From a virus, in the IMG/VR virus record IMGVR_UViG_3300032307_000652, positions 30,877 through 94,876 of that record: 64,000 nucleotides of DNA; one strand, given 5' to 3'. The translations under genes and the position numbers were made by a program. This document shows positions 5,780 through 60,679 of this stretch, in pieces (the stretch's first letter is position 1; each line of letters begins with the position of its first letter). The notes beneath the pieces were generated by a model. The model was not told the DNA's origin and ran no database searches. It worked only from the letters and a program-made list of their open reading frames with translations.

Positions 5780-8700
5780 ATGGCAACATCAAACAAAGTT
5801 TTCGTCTCGCCGGGTGTATATACATCAGAAAGAGACTTATCATTTGTTTCACAAAGTGTCGGAGTTACTACTTTAGGTATAGTTGGGGAAACCTTGAGAG
5901 GTCCAGCGTTTGAACCTATATTCATTTCAAGCTACGGAGAATTTGAAACTTACTTCGGTAGTACACTTCCTGAAAAATTTGTGAATACACAAATCCCAAA
6001 ATATGAAGCTGCATACATTGCTAAATCATATTTACAACAATCAAATCAACTTTTTGTAACAAGAGTTTTAGGTTTATCAGGTTATGACGCAGGTCCTTCT
6101 TGGTCTATCACAACAGTTGCTAATGTTGATTGTAATACTATTGGAATTACTGGTGGAACTTCATTTAGTTTTGACTTTACGGGTTCAACCGCATCAACAA
6201 CTTCAATACAGTTTACTTCAGCAGTCCCTTCAGTGATTTCAGGTAATACTTATTACTCAAATAACTACACAGCATTTGATGGTACTAATTCATCAATATT
6301 GTCAGATTTAAGAAGTCAGATATCAAGTATTTTATCAACTAATTCATTATCTGCAACATCAGCATATTATTTTGGTCCTGTTTCAGGAACTCAAGTTAAC
6401 GCAAATGTTGTTGCGGGTTTAACTTCCGCAACAAATGTGTTTGATGTTGATAGTATAAGTGCTTCAACAATAGATTATTGTTCAGGTACAAATGACGCTT
6501 GGTTCTATGCTAACTTCGTACCGCCAGCAACAGGTGAGGCGTATTACGGAAACTCTTTCTATACTAATATTAGTTCTTTATCAGGAAGTGCGTTTAGTAC
6601 CGCTGGAAGTTTTACAGGAACTGTTTCAGGTTATTATTATGGATTTTCAGGTTTAACTTATTCAGGTTATAATGATTTAGTAATTGCGACACTTCGTTCA
6701 AGAGGGGTAACTAATTATTCATCTACTCAACATGGTCCTGAATATCAAGTAACAGGAACTTCTGACGTTCAAATGATTTGTACAGGAAGTTACTCTGCGG
6801 TAACTCAAAATCCATTTGCGACATTTGTAATTTCAGGTTTAAGTTACGATTCAACATCATTTAGTTTTGAAACGTCTTTTACACCTTCAAACGCTAACTT
6901 TATAACTAAAGTATTTGGAGTTGAAAACTTCGCTAAAGACCAATCTGAAGTTCCTTTGTTTGTTGAAGAAAGATATTCTACATTGTTATCTTACGGATAT
7001 AATAAAGGATTTATTAGAGGATTAAATTGTTCTTTAATATCTTTACCTGAAGCAAGAAATAATAATATTGATTCAATCGCATATTATTTAGAAAGATATC
7101 AAACTCCACAATCACCATGGGTTGTTTCAGAATTACGTGGTAATTTAGTTTACAGATTATTCAGAGCTGTTACAATTTCTGACGGAAATGATGCGAACGC
7201 TGAAATTAAAATTTCAATCGCAAACATTTCATTTAACAATGGAACATTTGATTTAATTGTTAGAGATTTCTTTGACACAGATTCTAACCCTGTTGTTTTA
7301 GAGAAATTCACTAATTGTAGTATGAATCCTGGTGAAAACAACTACGTAGCTAAAAAAGTTGGTAGTTCAGATGGTGAGTTCGCAATAAAATCAAAATTCA
7401 TTATGGTTGAAATTAACACGGAAGCTCCAGTTGACGCTCTTCCTTGTGGTTTTGAAGGTTTTGAAACTCGTAAATACACAGGTGCTAAATCACCGTTCCA
7501 AATTTATAAAACAAAGTATGACTATCCTGGTGAAGTTATTTACAACCCACCATTTGGAACTACTGCTGGTTTAGATAATGCGGTTCAAAGTTCAGGTGAT
7601 AACATAAGAAGAACTTATTTAGGTATTTCTTCAGCAGTGGCTTTCTCATCAGACTCACCAGGTTATGACCCTGATTTCTTCCAATATAAAGGAATGCCAA
7701 ATCCAATAACAACAACTTGTACTGAGCCAAGTCATGTAAGTTGGGGATTACAAACTAAAGGTTTCCACATGGATAGTGGAGCAACTTCGGTAACAATAGC
7801 AAATGTTTACTCAAATAGTGGACAAACAGCGTTTTATGTTGGAGCTGGGTCATTTAGTTCTGAACCTACTTCACAAACTAGCCCATATTACTTCTTGTAT
7901 TCTCGTAAGTTTACTTTCTTGGTACAAGGTGGTTTTGATGGATGGGATATCTATCGTGAATACAGAACAAATGCTGACCGTTACAGATTAGGTAACACTG
8001 GTTATAAACAAGGAGCGTTAGCGGGTTGTGTACCTTACACAGATGCTACAGGATGGGGAGCGTTTAAACAAATCACAGTTGGTGATAACACAGTTGATTA
8101 CGCAAACACTGACTATTATGCATACCTATTGGGTGTTCAACAATTCGCAAATCCTGAGGTAACAAATATCAATGTGTTAGTAACACCTGGTATTGATTAT
8201 GTTAACAATGGTGATTTAGTAGAACAAGTAATTGATATTGTTGAGAATGACAGAGCGGACTCAATCTACATCTGTACAACTCCTGATTTCAATTTATTAC
8301 AACCTTCAACTTCAATGGATAATTTAATTTACCCACAAGAAGCGGTTGATAACTTGGAAAACACTAATATTGATTCTAACTATACCGCAACTTACTACCC
8401 ATGGGTTCTTACTCGTGATACGGTAAATAACACTCAAATCTATATTCCAGCAACGGCTGAAGCAACAAGAAACTTCGCGTTAACAGATAACATCGCGTTC
8501 CCATGGTTCGCAACTGCTGGTTATACAAGAGGTGTGGTAAATGCGGTTAGAGCTCGTAAGAGATTAACTCAAGAAGATAGAGATACTCTTTACAAAGGAA
8601 GAATTAACCCAATCGCAACTTTCAACGACGTTGGAACTGTTATTTGGGGTAATAAAACTCTTCAAATTAGAGAGTCAGCTCTTGACAGAATTAACGTAAG

Positions 8701-8995
8701 AAGATTGTTATTACAAGCTCGTAAGTTGATTTCAGCAGTAGCCGTAAGATTATTGTTCGAACAAAACGACAACTTAGTAAGACAACAATTCTTAGATTCT
8801 GTTAACCCAATCTTAGATGCGATTCGTAGAGATAGAGGTTTGTATGACTTCAGAGTTACTGTTCAAAACACACCTGAAGACTTAGACGCTAACCAAATGG
8901 TAGGTAAGATTTACATCAAACCAACTAAAGCTCTTGAATTCATTGATATTGAGTTCTTAATCACTCCAACAGGAGCATCGTTTGAAAATATCTAA
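5780..8995 (+). CDS. Contractile tail sheath protein, gp18-like
   Basis: 1071 residues, against about 660 in T4. The N-terminus FVSPGVYTSERDLS and the switch GIVGETLRGPAFEP are classic sheath features. The C-terminal 150 residues (INVRRLLLQARKLI, then LYDFRVTVQNTPED, then IEFLI) form the conserved sheath core that interlocks subunits around the tube. Residues about 110-380 are a Ser/Thr/Gly/Tyr-rich insertion that likely decorates the outside. The gene has its own TATTTAT element upstream and a strong terminator just after it, fitting a highly expressed single-gene unit. Confidence 0.93.
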   Translation: MATSNKVFVSPGVYTSERDLSFVSQSVGVTTLGIVGETLRGPAFEPIFISSYGEFETYFGSTLPEKFVNTQIPKYEAAYIAKSYLQQSNQLFVTRVLGLSGYDAGPSWSITTVANVDCNTIGITGGTSFSFDFTGSTASTTSIQFTSAVPSVISGNTYYSNNYTAFDGTNSSILSDLRSQISSILSTNSLSATSAYYFGPVSGTQVNANVVAGLTSATNVFDVDSISASTIDYCSGTNDAWFYANFVPPATGEAYYGNSFYTNISSLSGSAFSTAGSFTGTVSGYYYGFSGLTYSGYNDLVIATLRSRGVTNYSSTQHGPEYQVTGTSDVQMICTGSYSAVTQNPFATFVISGLSYDSTSFSFETSFTPSNANFITKVFGVENFAKDQSEVPLFVEERYSTLLSYGYNKGFIRGLNCSLISLPEARNNNIDSIAYYLERYQTPQSPWVVSELRGNLVYRLFRAVTISDGNDANAEIKISIANISFNNGTFDLIVRDFFDTDSNPVVLEKFTNCSMNPGENNYVAKKVGSSDGEFAIKSKFIMVEINTEAPVDALPCGFEGFETRKYTGAKSPFQIYKTKYDYPGEVIYNPPFGTTAGLDNAVQSSGDNIRRTYLGISSAVAFSSDSPGYDPDFFQYKGMPNPITTTCTEPSHVSWGLQTKGFHMDSGATSVTIANVYSNSGQTAFYVGAGSFSSEPTSQTSPYYFLYSRKFTFLVQGGFDGWDIYREYRTNADRYRLGNTGYKQGALAGCVPYTDATGWGAFKQITVGDNTVDYANTDYYAYLLGVQQFANPEVTNINVLVTPGIDYVNNGDLVEQVIDIVENDRADSIYICTTPDFNLLQPSTSMDNLIYPQEAVDNLENTNIDSNYTATYYPWVLTRDTVNNTQIYIPATAEATRNFALTDNIAFPWFATAGYTRGVVNAVRARKRLTQEDRDTLYKGRINPIATFNDVGTVIWGNKTLQIRESALDRINVRRLLLQARKLISAVAVRLLFEQNDNLVRQQFLDSVNPILDAIRRDRGLYDFRVTVQNTPEDLDANQMVGKIYIKPTKALEFIDIEFLITPTGASFENI

Positions 8996-9012: not shown

Positions 9013-9046
9013 GACCCTCACAGAAATGTGGGGGTTTTTTATTTTG
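9013..9046 (+). terminator. Rho-independent terminator after the sheath gene
   Basis: 8-bp stem (CCCTCACA / TGTGGGGG, one G-U pair) with a GAAA tetraloop, followed by six T and ATTTT. It starts 19 nt after the sheath stop. Confidence 0.9.
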
Positions 9047-9050
9047 TTAA

Positions 9051-9058
9051 TATTTATA
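9051..9058 (+). promoter_or_regulatory. TATTTATA element before the HAD gene
   Basis: TATTTATA, 3 nt before the ATG at 9062 and immediately after the sheath terminator. This placement decides the start over the more upstream TTG at 9026, which lies inside the terminator. Confidence 0.55.
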
Positions 9059-9061
9059 GTT

Positions 9062-9877
9062 ATGAAAATGTTTTTAGTAGAAAAATTTGAGGAAGAAGTT
9101 ACACCCGATTTAAAGTATTATGCTTTTGACTGGGATGATAATATTCTTACAATGCCGACACAAATAATACTTCGTACTGAAGGTGGTGAAGAAGTTGGTA
9201 TGTCAACAGAAGACTTTGCGGAATATCGTGTTAAAGTTGGAGTTGAACCTTTTGAATATAAAAAGAAAACTATTGTTGGGTTTGCTGACGACCCATTCAG
9301 AAATTTTGGAACCAAAGGGGATAAGAGGTTCATTATTGACGCAATGATGGCAAAAGAAGGTCCGGCATGGGATGACTTTGTTGAAGCGATTAATGGAGGC
9401 TCAATCTTTTCAATAGTTACTGCAAGAGGACATTCACCATTAGCGTTACGTAGAGCAATCGAAAATATGATTGAAACTAATTTTAAAGGGATATCTAAAA
9501 AAGAATTAGTTAAAAATTTAAGAAAGTTTAGAAAGTTCGCGGGTGAAGAAGATATGAGTGATAAAGAACTTATTAATGCTTATATGGATATGAACAAGTA
9601 TTATCCTGTAACATTTGGAGCCGGTTCGGCACAAAGTCCTGAAAAAGGAAAAGTAGATGCTTTAAGAGAGTTCCAACAATACGTGAAATATTTGGCGGGA
9701 AGATTAAAAAAACCTATAATGTTTAAAGATGATATTAGTAATAGATTCATACCTAAAATAGGTTTTTCAGATGATGATTTAAGAAATCTGGAAAAAGTTA
9801 AAGATGAATTATCAAAAGACCCAGAAAATATTATTCAAACAATATCAACACATGGAGGAGAAAAGAAATTATATTAA
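9062..9877 (+). CDS. HAD-superfamily hydrolase
   Basis: 271 residues. Residues 19-27 (YYAFDWDDN) give the HAD nucleophile D23 and acid/base D25. T120 in VTARG is motif II, a lysine in PEKGK (about 195) fits motif III, and GFSDDD (234-239) fits the acidic motif IV. A long helical insert (about 140-190) forms a cap. The substrate cannot be told; HAD phosphatases act on nucleotides, sugars or DNA ends. The N-terminal MKMFLVEKFEEE resembles the leaders of other genes here and could be a targeting peptide. The gene sits between sheath and tube, which are adjacent in T4, behind its own element and a terminator, like an inserted cargo gene. Confidence 0.75.
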   Translation: MKMFLVEKFEEEVTPDLKYYAFDWDDNILTMPTQIILRTEGGEEVGMSTEDFAEYRVKVGVEPFEYKKKTIVGFADDPFRNFGTKGDKRFIIDAMMAKEGPAWDDFVEAINGGSIFSIVTARGHSPLALRRAIENMIETNFKGISKKELVKNLRKFRKFAGEEDMSDKELINAYMDMNKYYPVTFGAGSAQSPEKGKVDALREFQQYVKYLAGRLKKPIMFKDDISNRFIPKIGFSDDDLRNLEKVKDELSKDPENIIQTISTHGGEKKLY

Positions 9878-9993: not shown

Positions 9994-10482
9994 ATGGCTG
10001 ATTTACTGATGAAAATGCCTTTTCCGTATGAACCCAAAAAGAAAAATAGATTTATTCTAAGATTTCCTTCTGAATTGGGTATAAACGAATGGTTTGTAGA
10101 AACAACAAATAGACCTAAAATAACTATAAACCCTATTGATATTCCTTTTCTAAATACTAAAAGATATGTTGCGGGAAAATACGAATGGAATACTATTGGT
10201 GTTACACTACGTGACCCAATTGGACCTTCAGCCGCTCAAGCAATGATGGAATGGGTTCGTTTACACGCTGAATCAGTAACGGGTCGTATGGGTTATGCAG
10301 CAGGATATAAGAAAGACGTTGAACTTGAAATGTTAGACCCGACAGGTGTTGTTATTGAAAAGTGGTCTTTAATCCAATGTTTCTTGACTGACGTTGATTT
10401 TGGTTCTCTTGGTTATGCGGACGACGCATTGGCTAATATTACATTGACACTTCGTCCTGACTATTGTGTATTACTTTACTAA
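9994..10482 (+). CDS. Tail tube protein, gp19-like
   Basis: 162 residues, the size of T4 gp19 (163). It has the PYEPKKKNRFILRFP start, a WFVETTNRPK loop, a central DPIGPSAAQAMMEWVRLH helix, and a final beta strand pair ending in LTLRPDYCVLLY, all typical of T4-type tube subunits that stack as hexamers inside the sheath. It follows the sheath with only the HAD gene between, and is followed by a terminator. A gp19-type assignment is firm. Confidence 0.93.
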   Translation: MADLLMKMPFPYEPKKKNRFILRFPSELGINEWFVETTNRPKITINPIDIPFLNTKRYVAGKYEWNTIGVTLRDPIGPSAAQAMMEWVRLHAESVTGRMGYAAGYKKDVELEMLDPTGVVIEKWSLIQCFLTDVDFGSLGYADDALANITLTLRPDYCVLLY

Positions 10483-10576: not shown

Positions 10577-11329
10577 ATGGAAGAACAAAATGTTAATCAA
10601 ATGAATTTTAATTTACCACATGATGTAATAACTTTACCAAGTGGAGGTAAATTTTATAAAAACAAAAAAAAATCGGTTAAAGTTGGTTTTTTAACTGCAG
10701 CTGATGAAAATATTTTGGCAAACGCTTCTAATATGTCTGGTGACCAAGTTATCCAACAATTAATTCGTTCTAAAGTTTATGAACCTGATTTGAAGGTTGA
10801 TGATATGTTAGAAGGTGATATTGAAGCAATTTTAGTTTTTTTAAGAAATACCGCATTTGGTCCTGAATACACTGTTAATTTAACTGACCCTGAAACAGGT
10901 AATAAATTTGAATCAACTTTTTCTTTAGAGGAGTTAAACTTTTCTAAACCTGAGGTTGACCCTGATGAAAATGGTCACTACACAGCAACACTCCCAAAAA
11001 GTGGAAAAACCGTAAAATTAAAATTATTGACGTTTGGTGATAAAAAAGAATTATCTGATAGAGAAAATTCATACCCAAAAAACATGGTTGCTCCTAAAGT
11101 TACTTGGAGATTGGTAAAACAAATTATTAGTATTGACAACAATGAGGATAAAACAGAAATTGCTAAGTTTGTTGAAAAAATGCCGATAATGGATTCCAAA
11201 TTTATTACCAATTTTATAAATAAAAATCAACCGTCATTAGACTTAATCAAAGAAATTATAGCCCCATCTGGAAAAAGTGTACTCACTCGAGTTACCTTTG
11301 GGGCTGAGTTTTTTCGCCCTTTCTTCTGA
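10577..11329 (+). CDS. Tail assembly chaperone / baseplate hub protein, gp26-like
   Basis: 250 residues. The start (FNLPHDVITLPSGGKFY) is the LPSxGxFY signature of the T4 gp26-type baseplate hub family. The middle has an LTAADENIL segment and the C-terminal part is helical. The gene lies between tube and tape measure, where tailed phages keep their tail assembly chaperones. Its last 53 nt overlap an open frame in the +1 register that runs on to 11471, so a longer fused product may also be made. No TATTTAT element is seen upstream; ATG 10577 is the only good start. Confidence 0.7.
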   Translation: MEEQNVNQMNFNLPHDVITLPSGGKFYKNKKKSVKVGFLTAADENILANASNMSGDQVIQQLIRSKVYEPDLKVDDMLEGDIEAILVFLRNTAFGPEYTVNLTDPETGNKFESTFSLEELNFSKPEVDPDENGHYTATLPKSGKTVKLKLLTFGDKKELSDRENSYPKNMVAPKVTWRLVKQIISIDNNEDKTEIAKFVEKMPIMDSKFITNFINKNQPSLDLIKEIIAPSGKSVLTRVTFGAEFFRPFF

Positions 11330-11471
11330 TTATACCAAACATCTTTTAGACCAATATCTTTTATTAAGTAGGTTTTTACATATTCCGTATTCGGATTTTA
11401 TGTTAATTCCTACGTCTCACCGTCTTTATTTGGTTAATACTGTTATAGAAATGAATACACCTAAAAGTTAG
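11277..11471 (+). CDS. Overlapping +1 frame, probable frameshifted C-terminal extension of the gp26-like protein
   Basis: This frame has no ATG near its beginning, only GTG at 11277 and TTG at 11298, both inside the upstream gene. It continues 142 nt past the upstream stop with a helix-rich, protein-like sequence (YTKHLLDQYLLLSRFL, then IPYSDFMLIPTSHR). If ribosomes slip +1 at TTT CGC (11312-11317), the product would be 246 residues of the upstream protein plus 51 new ones. Position directly before the tape measure is where lambda G/GT and P2 E/E' frameshifts lie. Whether it is a fusion or a separate gene is not decided by sequence alone. Confidence 0.6.
   Translation: MYSLELPLGLSFFALSSDYTKHLLDQYLLLSRFLHIPYSDFMLIPTSHRLYLVNTVIEMNTPKS
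11309..11317 (+). other. Candidate +1 frameshift site TTT TTT CGC
   Basis: In the upstream frame the ribosome reads TTT TTT CGC. A +1 slip moves tRNA-Phe (anticodon GAA) from UUU to UUC, its better partner, while CGC, which looks little used here, waits in the A site. The new frame continues GCC CTT TCT to the stop at 11469. Confidence 0.5.
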
Positions 11472-11499: not shown

Positions 11500-13521
11500 A
11501 TGTTACAAACAGATGATGTTAGTGGTAAAATACCTATAACCGCAGAAGAAACCAAATTTATTGGTGAAAATATAGCTCAGTTATTAATTAATGTTAATGC
11601 TATTCAAAAACCTGCATTAGGTTTAATTAATAGTTTTTTAGAAGTTAACAAAAGAATTGCAGAAGCCGACAAAGGTGCGTTTTCCTTAGTTGGAAAAATG
11701 GGACTAAATGAAGAGGCAGCTAAAAGAATTAAAAGAACTTTTGGTGAAGCTTATAATGAATTAGGTTTAATTGGTGCTGATTTTGGAACATTTGTAAAAA
11801 CACAGGAGTTATTCAATACTGCTACAGGTCGTAATGTTGTATTAACCAAAGAAAATTTAAACGATTTAATTTCAACAAATAAAGTTACGGGACTTGCGGC
11901 TGATACACTATTAACGAGTTTTCAGAATGCTGGTTTTTCAATGTCACAGATTACTCAAAATATGGAGAAAGTGGTTACACTTGCTTCAAGTATGGGGTTA
12001 AATAGTCAAGTGGTGTCTAAATTGGTAACCGATAATTTAGAAAAACTAAATAAGTTTGGTTTTGGTAATGGGGTTGAAGGTTTGGCAAAAATGGCGGCAA
12101 AAGCAGCATCTATGAGAATAGATATGAAGTCAGCTTTTCAAGTTGCGGACGACATCTTCAATAAAGGACCTGAAGCTGCTATAGAAATTTCTGCGACTTT
12201 ACAAAGATTAGGGGCAACGTCAGGTGCATTACTTGACCCATTAAAATTGATGGATTTAGCTCAAAACAATCTTCCTGAGTTACAAAATCAACTTGTTGAT
12301 TTATCAAAACAATATACCGTATTTAACGAAGATACTAAACAATTTGAAATCATGCCTGGTGCTAGAAAGCAATTAAATGAAGTAGCTAAGTCTTTAGGTA
12401 TAAGTTATGAAGAATTCGCAAAAATGTCTTTAGAAAGTTCTAAAATGGAAAAAAAACTTTCTGAAATTGATTTTAGCAGGTTTAGTCTGAATATGACCGA
12501 AGAACAAAAAGCTTTGATTACAAACATGGCTGAAATGAATACTCAGGGTGAGTATGTTGTTAAGGTAAAAGATGAAAATGGTGAATATATTGAAAAAGCG
12601 ATAACTCAATTAGGTCAAGAAGATTTAGTTTCATTACAAAAAGAAACTTTAACTGAAGGTGAAAAAATGTATGATATTGCTTCACAAAGTTTGAGTCAAC
12701 TTGAAAGAATTGGTAATTTACAAGAAACTTTTAATAATTCATTAAGTACTATGTTAGCAACAGGTGAATATGGAAATGCTATTTTACAAACATTAGCGGC
12801 TAGCAATGAAAAATTATATGGTGTAAATGACGCTTCAAAAAATGAGACTTTAAAACTTCTTACAATAAATAACAAGGATATGAATGAAAATGCCGTAAAT
12901 ATGGCAAATTCAACAAAGTCATTAATTGAAACGGCTTCTATTGGTGGTGCGGGTAATTTAGCTTCTGCGACATTGGCTTTAGAAGACCTTGGTAAAAGTA
13001 TGTTTGATATTAGTAAAAAAGGGTTGGGGGCAGCGTATGAAAATACCACACCTACTGACGTGTTAAAGGCGGTTATAACTACTACCGCGGCTCAAACCGC
13101 TGTTGATATTGGAAAAGAAATTGGTCAATACATAACAGGTGAAAAAAAAATAACGGATTTATTAATACCAAAATCTGGAGGTGATATTGCGGTAACTGCT
13201 GACGGAATACACTATTCTTTAGATAAAGGAGATATGTTAATGGCTGTAAATCAACAAAAATTAGCATCCGCAATTGGTGCATCATCACCATCACCAATAT
13301 TACCAACTGCGGTTGAAAATAATTACGCTTCTACTGAAGTAAAAAAAGAATCAACCCCAAAAGAACTTAATGTGAATATCAACTTTACACATGAGTCCAA
13401 AGGAGCTGATATAAATGTTGCTCAAGAATTTTCAAAATCTTTAAGAGATAATACATCATTACAACAACAACTTGTTCAACAGATAACTGAAAATATTAAA
13501 AACTACGGTTTAACCGCCTGA
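11500..13521 (+). CDS. Tape measure protein
   Basis: 673 residues, largely alpha-helical, with alanine-rich helices and few aromatics. It starts with long amphipathic helices (about 15-70), has repeated small-residue helical segments through the middle, and a polar C-terminus with a beta strand (LNVNINFTHE) and Gln-rich helices. At about 1.5 angstrom per residue this predicts a tail near 100 nm, like T4. It follows the gp26-like gene and its +1 overlap, the standard place for a tape measure, and corresponds by position to T4 gp29. No transmembrane domain stands out. Confidence 0.75.
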   Translation: MLQTDDVSGKIPITAEETKFIGENIAQLLINVNAIQKPALGLINSFLEVNKRIAEADKGAFSLVGKMGLNEEAAKRIKRTFGEAYNELGLIGADFGTFVKTQELFNTATGRNVVLTKENLNDLISTNKVTGLAADTLLTSFQNAGFSMSQITQNMEKVVTLASSMGLNSQVVSKLVTDNLEKLNKFGFGNGVEGLAKMAAKAASMRIDMKSAFQVADDIFNKGPEAAIEISATLQRLGATSGALLDPLKLMDLAQNNLPELQNQLVDLSKQYTVFNEDTKQFEIMPGARKQLNEVAKSLGISYEEFAKMSLESSKMEKKLSEIDFSRFSLNMTEEQKALITNMAEMNTQGEYVVKVKDENGEYIEKAITQLGQEDLVSLQKETLTEGEKMYDIASQSLSQLERIGNLQETFNNSLSTMLATGEYGNAILQTLAASNEKLYGVNDASKNETLKLLTINNKDMNENAVNMANSTKSLIETASIGGAGNLASATLALEDLGKSMFDISKKGLGAAYENTTPTDVLKAVITTTAAQTAVDIGKEIGQYITGEKKITDLLIPKSGGDIAVTADGIHYSLDKGDMLMAVNQQKLASAIGASSPSPILPTAVENNYASTEVKKESTPKELNVNINFTHESKGADINVAQEFSKSLRDNTSLQQQLVQQITENIKNYGLTA

Positions 13522-30647: not shown

Positions 30648-31607
30648 ATGGAACAAAAAATGGAAAAAATTTTAGTAGAAAATCCAAATCGTTTTGTAAT
30701 TTTCCCAATACAATATAATGATATTTGGGAATTTTATAAGATGCATCAAGCTGCGTTTTGGACAGCAGAAGAAATCGATTTAAGCGGTGACCTACGTGAC
30801 TGGGAAAACTTATCAGAAAATGAACAATATTTTATCAAAAATATTTTATCGTTTTTCGCGGCATCAGATGGTATCGTAAATGAAAACTTGGCTGAAAATT
30901 TCTATAGAGAAGTACAATATCCTGAAGCTAAGTTTTTCTATGGTATGCAACTTGCTATGGAGAACATTCACAGTTTAATGTATTCACTTCTTATTGATAC
31001 TTACGTGTCAAATGAAGAAGAAAAAAACAAATGTTTTACTGCGTTAGATAATTTACCTGCGGTTCAGAAGAAGGCTAAATGGGCTTTGGATTGGATTGAA
31101 AATGCGTCGTTCCAAGAAAGATTGGTGGCATTTGCGGCTGTTGAAGGCATCTTCTTTTCAGGTTCATTCTGTTCTATTTTCTGGTTAAAATCAAGAGGTA
31201 TTATGCAAGGATTGTGTAATGCTAACGCTTTGATTTTCAAAGACGAAAACCTACACTGTGACTTTGCAATTCACTTGTTAAACAATCACGTTGAAAACAA
31301 ACCAAGTGAAAAGAGAATTAAAGAAATTCTACTTTCAGCTCTTGAGATTGAAAAAGAATTCATCACTGAATCACTACCTGTTTCTTTAATTGGTATGAAC
31401 CAAAACTTAATGAAACAATATCTTGAGTTTGTTGTTGATGGTCTATTGGTAAAGTTTGGATGTAAAAAACAATTTAATGTTGAACAACCATTTAAGTTCA
31501 TGGAACAAATTGCGGTTGAAACAAAAGGTAATTTCTTCGAGTCAAGAACTGTTGAATACCAAAAAGCTAAATTGAATGAAACATTGTCCTTTACTGACGA
31601 TTTCTAA
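30648..31607 (+). CDS. nrdB: Class Ia ribonucleotide reductase, small subunit
   Basis: 319 residues; a second ATG 12 nt inside is an alternative start. Diiron ligands are visible: D44 (EEID), E105 and H108 in MENIH, a later Glu in [10 protein letters not shown], and the E-x-x-H of DENLHCD. The radical tyrosine Y112 follows H108 at the expected four-residue distance (HSLMY). So this is the tyrosyl-radical form, needing oxygen. It pairs with nrdA 20 nt downstream to make dNTPs for phage replication. Confidence 0.95.
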
Positions 31608-59434: not shown

Positions 59435-60679
59435 ATGAAAATTTTTATACAAGTTGCGTCTTATAGAGACCCACAGTTAATCCCAACTATAAAATCTGCA
59501 TTAGAAAATGCTAAACGACCTGAAAACTTAGTTTTCGGTATTGCTCGTCAGTATCATCGCGATGATAATTTTGATAATTTAGATGAATATAGAGATGATG
59601 AAAGATTTAGAATAATTGATATTCCTTATTATGAATCTAGAGGAGCATGTTGGGCGAGAAATCAAATACAACAATTGTACGATAAAGAAAATTACACCCT
59701 CCAAATTGACTCACATATGAGGTTTGCCCAAGATTGGGATGATGAGATGATTAGGATGATTAAACAACTTCAAAAGAAAGGATATAAGAAACCTTTATTA
59801 ACAGGATATGTTTCATCATTTGACCCTGACAATGACCCAAGTTTACGTGTGAATGAACCATGGAGAATGGCGTTTGATAGATTTATTCCTGAAGGTGCTG
59901 TTTTCTTTTTACCTGAGACAATTCCTGGTTGGCAAAATCTAACTGAACCTGTTACCGCAAGATTTTATTCCGCTCACTTCTGTTTTACTCTTGGTAAGTT
60001 CGCTAAAGAAGTTCAACACGACCCTGAGTTTTATTTTCACGGAGAAGAGATTTCAATTGCCGCAAGAGCTTACACTCACGGATATGATTTATTCCACCCA
60101 CACAAAGTTTTGATTTGGCATGAATATACTCGCAAAGGTAGAACCAAACAATGGGACGACGATAAACAATGGGTGGATAAGAATAATTTTGCTCACAAGA
60201 AAAATCGTTCTCTATTTGGTATGGATGGTGAGGAAAATATGAATCACGGAAAATATGGTTTTGGTAAAGTTAGAAGTTTAAGAGATTATGAAAAATATTC
60301 AGGACTACTCTTTTCAAAGAGAGCCGTTCAACAATATACATTAGATAAAGGTTATCCACCTAATCCAAATAACTTCAATTCAGAAGAAGAATGGTTAAAA
60401 TCATTTACGTCAGTATTCAAACATTGTATTGATATTGGATTTACTCAAGTTCCTGAAAAGGATTATGACTTTTGGGTTGTTGCGTTCCACAATGAAATGG
60501 ATGAGACCATTTACAGACAAGACGCTGATAAAGGTGAGGTTGATAGAATGTTAAGAGACCCTGATGGTTATTGTAAAGTTTGGAGAGAGTTCTTAACTGA
60601 TTCAAAACCTAAATATTGGGTGGTTTGGCCTCACTCAGAATCTAAAGGATGGTGTGATAGAATAACAGGAAATTTATAA
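59435..60679 (+). CDS. Glycosyltransferase of the GlcNAc (Skp1-type) family
   Basis: 414 residues. It starts MKIFIQVASYRDPQLIPTI and has ESRGACWARNQIQQLY, then the metal-binding DSH motif (near residue 92, LQIDSHMRF), TGYVSSFDPDND, and FHGEEISIAARAYTHGYDLF. This order matches the GT-A GlcNAc-transferase family that includes the eukaryotic Skp1 hydroxyproline GlcNAc-transferase. Bacterial and phage members are of unknown target. It opens the glycosyltransferase run and follows the fibre genes. Possible targets are virion proteins, host surface or DNA. Confidence 0.85.
   Translation: MKIFIQVASYRDPQLIPTIKSALENAKRPENLVFGIARQYHRDDNFDNLDEYRDDERFRIIDIPYYESRGACWARNQIQQLYDKENYTLQIDSHMRFAQDWDDEMIRMIKQLQKKGYKKPLLTGYVSSFDPDNDPSLRVNEPWRMAFDRFIPEGAVFFLPETIPGWQNLTEPVTARFYSAHFCFTLGKFAKEVQHDPEFYFHGEEISIAARAYTHGYDLFHPHKVLIWHEYTRKGRTKQWDDDKQWVDKNNFAHKKNRSLFGMDGEENMNHGKYGFGKVRSLRDYEKYSGLLFSKRAVQQYTLDKGYPPNPNNFNSEEEWLKSFTSVFKHCIDIGFTQVPEKDYDFWVVAFHNEMDETIYRQDADKGEVDRMLRDPDGYCKVWREFLTDSKPKYWVVWPHSESKGWCDRITGNL

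Follow-up and report, generated by a model that had tools for sequence, protein, structure and literature searches.

Does a single gp26-like gene of a T4-type phage encode both a short and a long form of a tail assembly chaperone? The gene lies in a stretch of 64,000 nucleotides (hereafter the window), which is positions 30,877 to 94,876 of the 94,876-base virus record IMGVR_UViG_3300032307_000652 in IMG/VR. The original prediction, made from the letters of the window, placed a gene at 10577–11329 with the +1 frame open to 11471 and TTT TTT CGC in frame at 11309–11317, and these coordinates were right. It proposed that the phenylalanine tRNA (tRNA-Phe) slips forward from UUU to UUC with CGC waiting, in the gene just before that of the tape measure protein, and comparative evidence supports this. 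Judging from the sequences of its relatives, the gene very probably yields a short chaperone and, by a +1 slip, a 297-residue long form, as lambda G/GT yields two forms. The elements of the locus are as follows.

10577–11329, plus strand: gp26-like short tail assembly chaperone, zero frame, 250 amino acids (PF12322, E 1e-10; phrog_150, E 1.4e-15, profile positions 10–233 of 282)
11261–11304, plus strand: conserved upstream RNA stem-loop (11261–11266 pairs with 11299–11304, and 11276–11280 with 11294–11298)
11309–11317, plus strand: slip site TTT TTT CGC, in frame
11316–11471, plus strand: C-terminal domain, +1 frame, 51 residues and TAG, with 47 codons beyond the zero-frame stop
11327–11329, plus strand: zero-frame stop TGA (TGA or TAA in relatives)

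The gp26-like gene would encode the short tail assembly chaperone, and a minority of ribosomes, on reaching UUU_UUU_CGC, would pause at the rare CGC codon. The tRNA on the P-site TTT (11312–11314) would then re-pair on TTC (11313–11315), making GCC (11316–11318) the next codon, and the slip would give the long form by adding 51 residues, which stand where T4 gp51 has its C-terminal domain. We infer that a stem that forms again behind the ribosome could drive it forward. The lambda gpG/gpGT pair suggests a division of labour by analogy: the short form would coat the tape measure protein, and tail tube subunits would be brought in by the long form, which is the rarer. Translating with TTTC read as one step gave exactly 297 residues, which reproduced the predicted long form beside the 250-residue short form.

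Conservation and selection in the shifted frame

To compare relatives, we queried viral contigs with two proteins, that of the window and a 61% relative, and obtained 96 usable loci with 57 unique sequences (hereafter the clan). The gene ended in TTY TTT CGY CCT TTC TTC TRA in 96/96 loci, and the +1 frame, which is open from 11262 to 11471 in the window, continued 45–48 codons past the stop in every one of them. Both the site and the open +1 frame are therefore kept in relatives. The slip codons were frozen at synonymous positions: GGG, TTT (the slip codon), CCT, TTC, and TTC were invariant in all 57 unique sequences, while the gene body had a mean synonymous codon identity of 0.58, with 1.1% of columns at 1.0. 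Use of the +1 frame would account for the freezing of CCT TTC TTC, because these codons are coded in both frames. The freezing of GGG, which precedes the slip, needs another reason, and the upstream stem offers one. Within the window, CGC is a rare codon (5 uses in ~19,900 codons, or 0.3 per 1000), and in-frame TTT-CGC occurs once, at the slip site.

After the zero-frame stop, the ratio of nonsynonymous to synonymous rates (dN/dS) in the +1 frame was ~0.30 in this clan; the new-frame ratio was 0.37 in a second clan of 79 loci, which we name after the Flavobacterium phage immuto. By this measure, the +1 extension is under purifying selection. An accidental overlap or an assembly error is scarcely credible: we found no point in its support, and it would have to account for 96 clan loci drawn from many metagenomes, for isolated phages besides, and for purifying selection in the new frame.

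Start codons, slip codons, and the upstream stem-loop

An alternative is that the +1 frame forms a small gene in its own right, whose translation begins at GTG 11277 or TTG 11298 or re-initiates after the stop; the 57-amino-acid gp51 of cyanophages may be such a gene. The original prediction held that the +1 frame has no ATG. There are in fact ATGs at 11400 and 11451, both within the conserved domain; upstream of them there is indeed none, and only GTG 11277 and TTG 11298 are available. No +1-frame start codon is conserved across the clan. GTG 11277, which the prediction named as a possible start of independent translation, was found in just 6/57 unique relatives, and this start is not upheld. 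In favour of a separate gene is TTG 11298, present in 52/57 and absent from L039, L040, and L042, and the idea draws further support from cyanophages, where an ATG stands at +5 after the stop in 75/75 unique loci. In two clan loci (L085 and L092), however, there is no ATG, GTG, or TTG, and a +1-frame TAG lies two codons before the slip; eight unique loci of the immuto clan likewise have no start of any kind. A separate gene would also leave unexplained both the conserved slip codons and a domain that is conserved from the FF junction on, and we consider it improbable.

A +1 slip from UUU to UUC gains from the same loci. Between the +1-frame TAG and the zero-frame TGA of L085 and L092, only two TTT codons are able to re-pair one base forward. 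A different change of frame could be imagined, either a ribosomal slip of −2 or slippage during transcription of the U run: TTTTTTC could permit re-pairing two bases back with the addition of one Phe. Yet the site reads TTC TTT CGY in L016, L017, and Streptococcus phage GXN1, with neither a run of six U nor two-back re-pairing; these variants leave only the second TTT and exclude a −2 slip and U-run slippage. The +1 pairing of UUU to UUC is perfect in all clan loci, and on sequence grounds it alone fits every variant, so we regard the −2 and U-run explanations as very unlikely. The two products differ in mass: the computed +1 junction peptide, VTFGAEFFALSSDYTK, has two Phe and an [M+H]+ of 1782.86, whereas the −2 version has three Phe and 1929.93.

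Upstream of the slip site, we examined the stem at 11261–11304 in 42 distinct clan sequences. Pairing was found in 95.7% of cells, with 43 cells changed on both sides; 0/500 shuffles paired as highly, and versions slid along the alignment reached at most 65%. Among 306 windows covering the gene and 1.2 kb past it, that of the stem was the most stable (−10.7; median 0), and the stem alignment lay far below column shuffles, while single sequences folded just modestly better than their shuffles. The 3′ arm is an invariant GGGG that ends 7 nucleotides before the P-site codon. We looked for downstream RNA structure in the clan structure analysis and found none. A Shine-Dalgarno stimulator of the RF2 type was also considered and set aside, as the invariant GGGG fits the stem arm better and GAG also occurs as GAA/GAC. 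Thermodynamics would allow a hairpin that includes the slip site, but with so little variation in its pairs it is uninformative.

The chaperone family and its layouts in T4-type phages

The PF12322 match of the gp26-like protein exceeds the curated cut-off, and tail assembly chaperone is a better name for the gene than baseplate hub. On the 282 positions of phrog_150, T4 gp26 matches to 235, T4 gp51 to 280, and the small 57-amino-acid cyanophage gp51 matches at 239–281; T4 gp26 and gp51 both match PF12322 and resemble each other (BLASTP E 2e-6). From this coverage and resemblance, T4 gp51 is a gp26 relative with an added C-terminal domain. The +1 extension of the window has the same position and length as phrog_150 235–282 and a similar short motif, with no significant direct match, so its assignment as a gp51-type C-terminus depends on position, length, and short motifs. 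The small +1 open reading frame by itself matched no family in Pfam, PHROG, or direct searches, and no solved structure was related by sequence. A fold model of the long form (mean predicted local distance difference test score 79.6), in which the extension was modelled poorly, matched models of the gp26 family. In T4, gp26 and gp51 are on opposite strands (L025 3803–5229), and T4 appears to use two genes where its relatives use a frameshift.

The +1 layout extends beyond the clan. The immuto clan carries TTT (CTT/CTA/TTT) TGG (one TAC) CCT GAC/GAA, followed in the +1 frame, unless the contig is cut off early, by ~73–101 further codons; one member has a +1 frame that opens just 2 nucleotides before the slip, and members with TTT CTA are compatible with a slip on the first TTT only. 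The layout is also present in LR756508 and in the isolated phages immuto, Mel-JY01, GXN1, SP-15, and LIS04, with hosts in Flavobacterium, Microcystis, Streptococcus, Bacillus, and Listeria, although the exact slip codons vary. In-frame UUU followed by CGN, with a coding new frame, was found in 96/96 clan loci and in GXN1. Small genes annotated as hypothetical in immuto, SP-15, and Atu_ph07 (L026 4830–4940, L027 4821–4940, and L029 4891–5013) are probably 3′ pieces of frameshifted chaperone extensions.

Other T4-type phages, some of them jumbo phages, have the next domain in the −1 frame, after U_UUU_UUC in cyanophages (80/80), KVP40, Atu_ph07, PA5oct, and LR756511, and after U_UUU_UUU in RAS14. 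In L034 and the 80 cyanophage loci (L194–L273), gp26 ends on an invariant U_UUU_UUC and the −1 frame is open through gp51. Because the ATG after the stop is fully conserved in cyanophages, separate translation is possible there, and −1 slip and separate translation may both be used. On a tree of the zero-frame protein, in which deep branches are weak, slip direction needs three changes in all, and the window clan is sister, with moderate support, to a group including a Flavobacterium phage. We lean towards a broader view in which a large T4-type clan uses the UUU_CGN motif on bacterial ribosomes with a stem-loop behind the ribosome, and in which one T4-type chaperone pair is made in three ways: by +1 slip, by −1 slip on the same UUUUUUC in the other phase, and from two separate genes.

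Several observations weigh against the +1 slip as we propose it. TTG 11298 is frequent in the clan, though it is a by-product of the conserved TTT GGG. The extensions differ in length between the two clans (45–48 against ~73–101 codons) and match no family alone. In the stem, double changes mostly split two subclades and thus amount to few independent events, which makes the covariation evidence good but not final. A conserved stem in the immuto clan was seen in two analyses and gone in a third, and we claim no robust stem there. Finally, the only solved structure matching the long-form model with a Foldseek probability >0.15 was 2ob9_B, the HK97 tail assembly chaperone, which speaks for the proposal, but that match was weak (probability 0.51, E 1.2, template modelling score 0.50 of target).

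Genomic setting and known frameshift systems

The order of genes around the locus is tube (9994–10482), the gp26-like gene, and the gene at 11500–13521. The neighbouring tail genes are the following.

5780–8995, plus strand: tail sheath protein, upstream (phrog_23, E 1.7e-58; PF04984)
9994–10482, plus strand: tail tube protein, directly upstream (phrog_4542, E 4.6e-30)
11500–13521, plus strand: next gene, an open reading frame of 673 amino acids, presumed tape measure protein by position

The 673-amino-acid protein had no family match in Pfam and PHROG searches; the gene in its place is annotated as tail tape measure protein in immuto, SP-15, and LIS04. T4-type genes surrounding the locus in the window are those for sheath, tube, gp26, a gp32-like protein, a DnaB-like helicase, and a baseplate wedge. 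The sheath protein is 1071 amino acids long, and sheath families align mainly from about residue 740 onward. Between the sheath and tube genes, 9026–9877 encodes a 283-amino-acid protein with the motif YAFDWDDNIL, which resembles haloacid dehalogenase (HAD)-type phosphatases and had no Pfam or PHROG match. Elsewhere, 452–1954 on the minus strand encodes a 501-amino-acid protein in which an iron/manganese superoxide dismutase (PF02777, E 8e-42; PF00081), unusual for a phage, makes up the first half and the remainder had no match, and 59435–60679 encodes an N-acetylglucosamine-type glycosyltransferase (PF11397, E 2e-68). A search of genome contigs found no relative; the scarcity of Shine-Dalgarno-like sites (35/39 window genes are without one) and the sister position to the group with the Flavobacterium phage suggest a host in Bacteroidota.

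The original prediction stated that T4-type phages are not known to frameshift at this place, which is out of date. That gp26 and gp51 are T4-type tail assembly chaperones, and that T4-like phages carry a short and a fused long chaperone gene, is already known from Vladimirov, Gautam and Davidson 2022, as cited in PMC10885494 and PMC12846349; poly-T −1 signals are also known in short-form genes of T4-like phages (PMC12846349). Lambda-type tail frameshifting had earlier been described as widely conserved “except T4” (PMC5009743). Lambda G/GT and P2 E/E′ share with the window a short chaperone gene just before the tape measure gene and a C-terminal domain in another frame with no conserved start of its own, but the window has a +1 rather than a −1 slip, on UUU_CGY, together with an upstream stem-loop and the gp26 sequence family. 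T4 itself has the gp26-like short protein, and the long form of the window is laid out as gp51, although T4 makes the pair from two separate full-length genes on opposite strands and the window from one gene with a frameshift. In the −1 poly-U phages, too, the gp26 gene ends in UUUUUUC (U7 in RAS14) with a gp51-type C-terminal domain in a shifted frame; theirs is the other phase, and the small gene of cyanophages and KVP40 has an ATG as well.

Forward shifts have precedents. The tail gene of the haloarchaeal myovirus HSTV-2 very likely uses a +1 shift (PMC5009743); as in the window, a forward shift is proposed there for a tail-assembly gene in a virus with a contractile tail. Forward cases also occur in annotated actinophage sets (PMC10885494). 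In influenza PA-X, a +1 shift on UCC_UUU_CGU has been proven by peptide, and a 2012 paper proposed UUU_CGN as a class for viruses of eukaryotes without deciding on its use elsewhere (PMC3498833). These sites, proposed also in fijiviruses, amalgaviruses, and chronic bee paralysis virus, share the P-site UUU, re-pairing on UUC, and an A-site CGN with the window, which differs in being from a bacterial virus, in having UUU/UUC rather than UCC in the E site, and in its conserved upstream stem and different gene. Among the papers searched, none was found to describe UUU_CGN in a phage or a +1 shift in gp26, and a forward slip that uses the PA-X motif of influenza, UUU_CGY, and has a stem-loop upstream appears to be new.

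If true, this finding would carry the UUU_CGN motif into bacteria and provide a candidate example of a +1 slip linked to a stem-loop upstream. It suggests that immuto gp038, SP15_046, and Atu_ph07 gp687, each now annotated as a small hypothetical protein in its own right, are parts of a longer chaperone. The forward-slip version occurs in many T4-type phages, one of them isolated on Flavobacterium, and is therefore testable.
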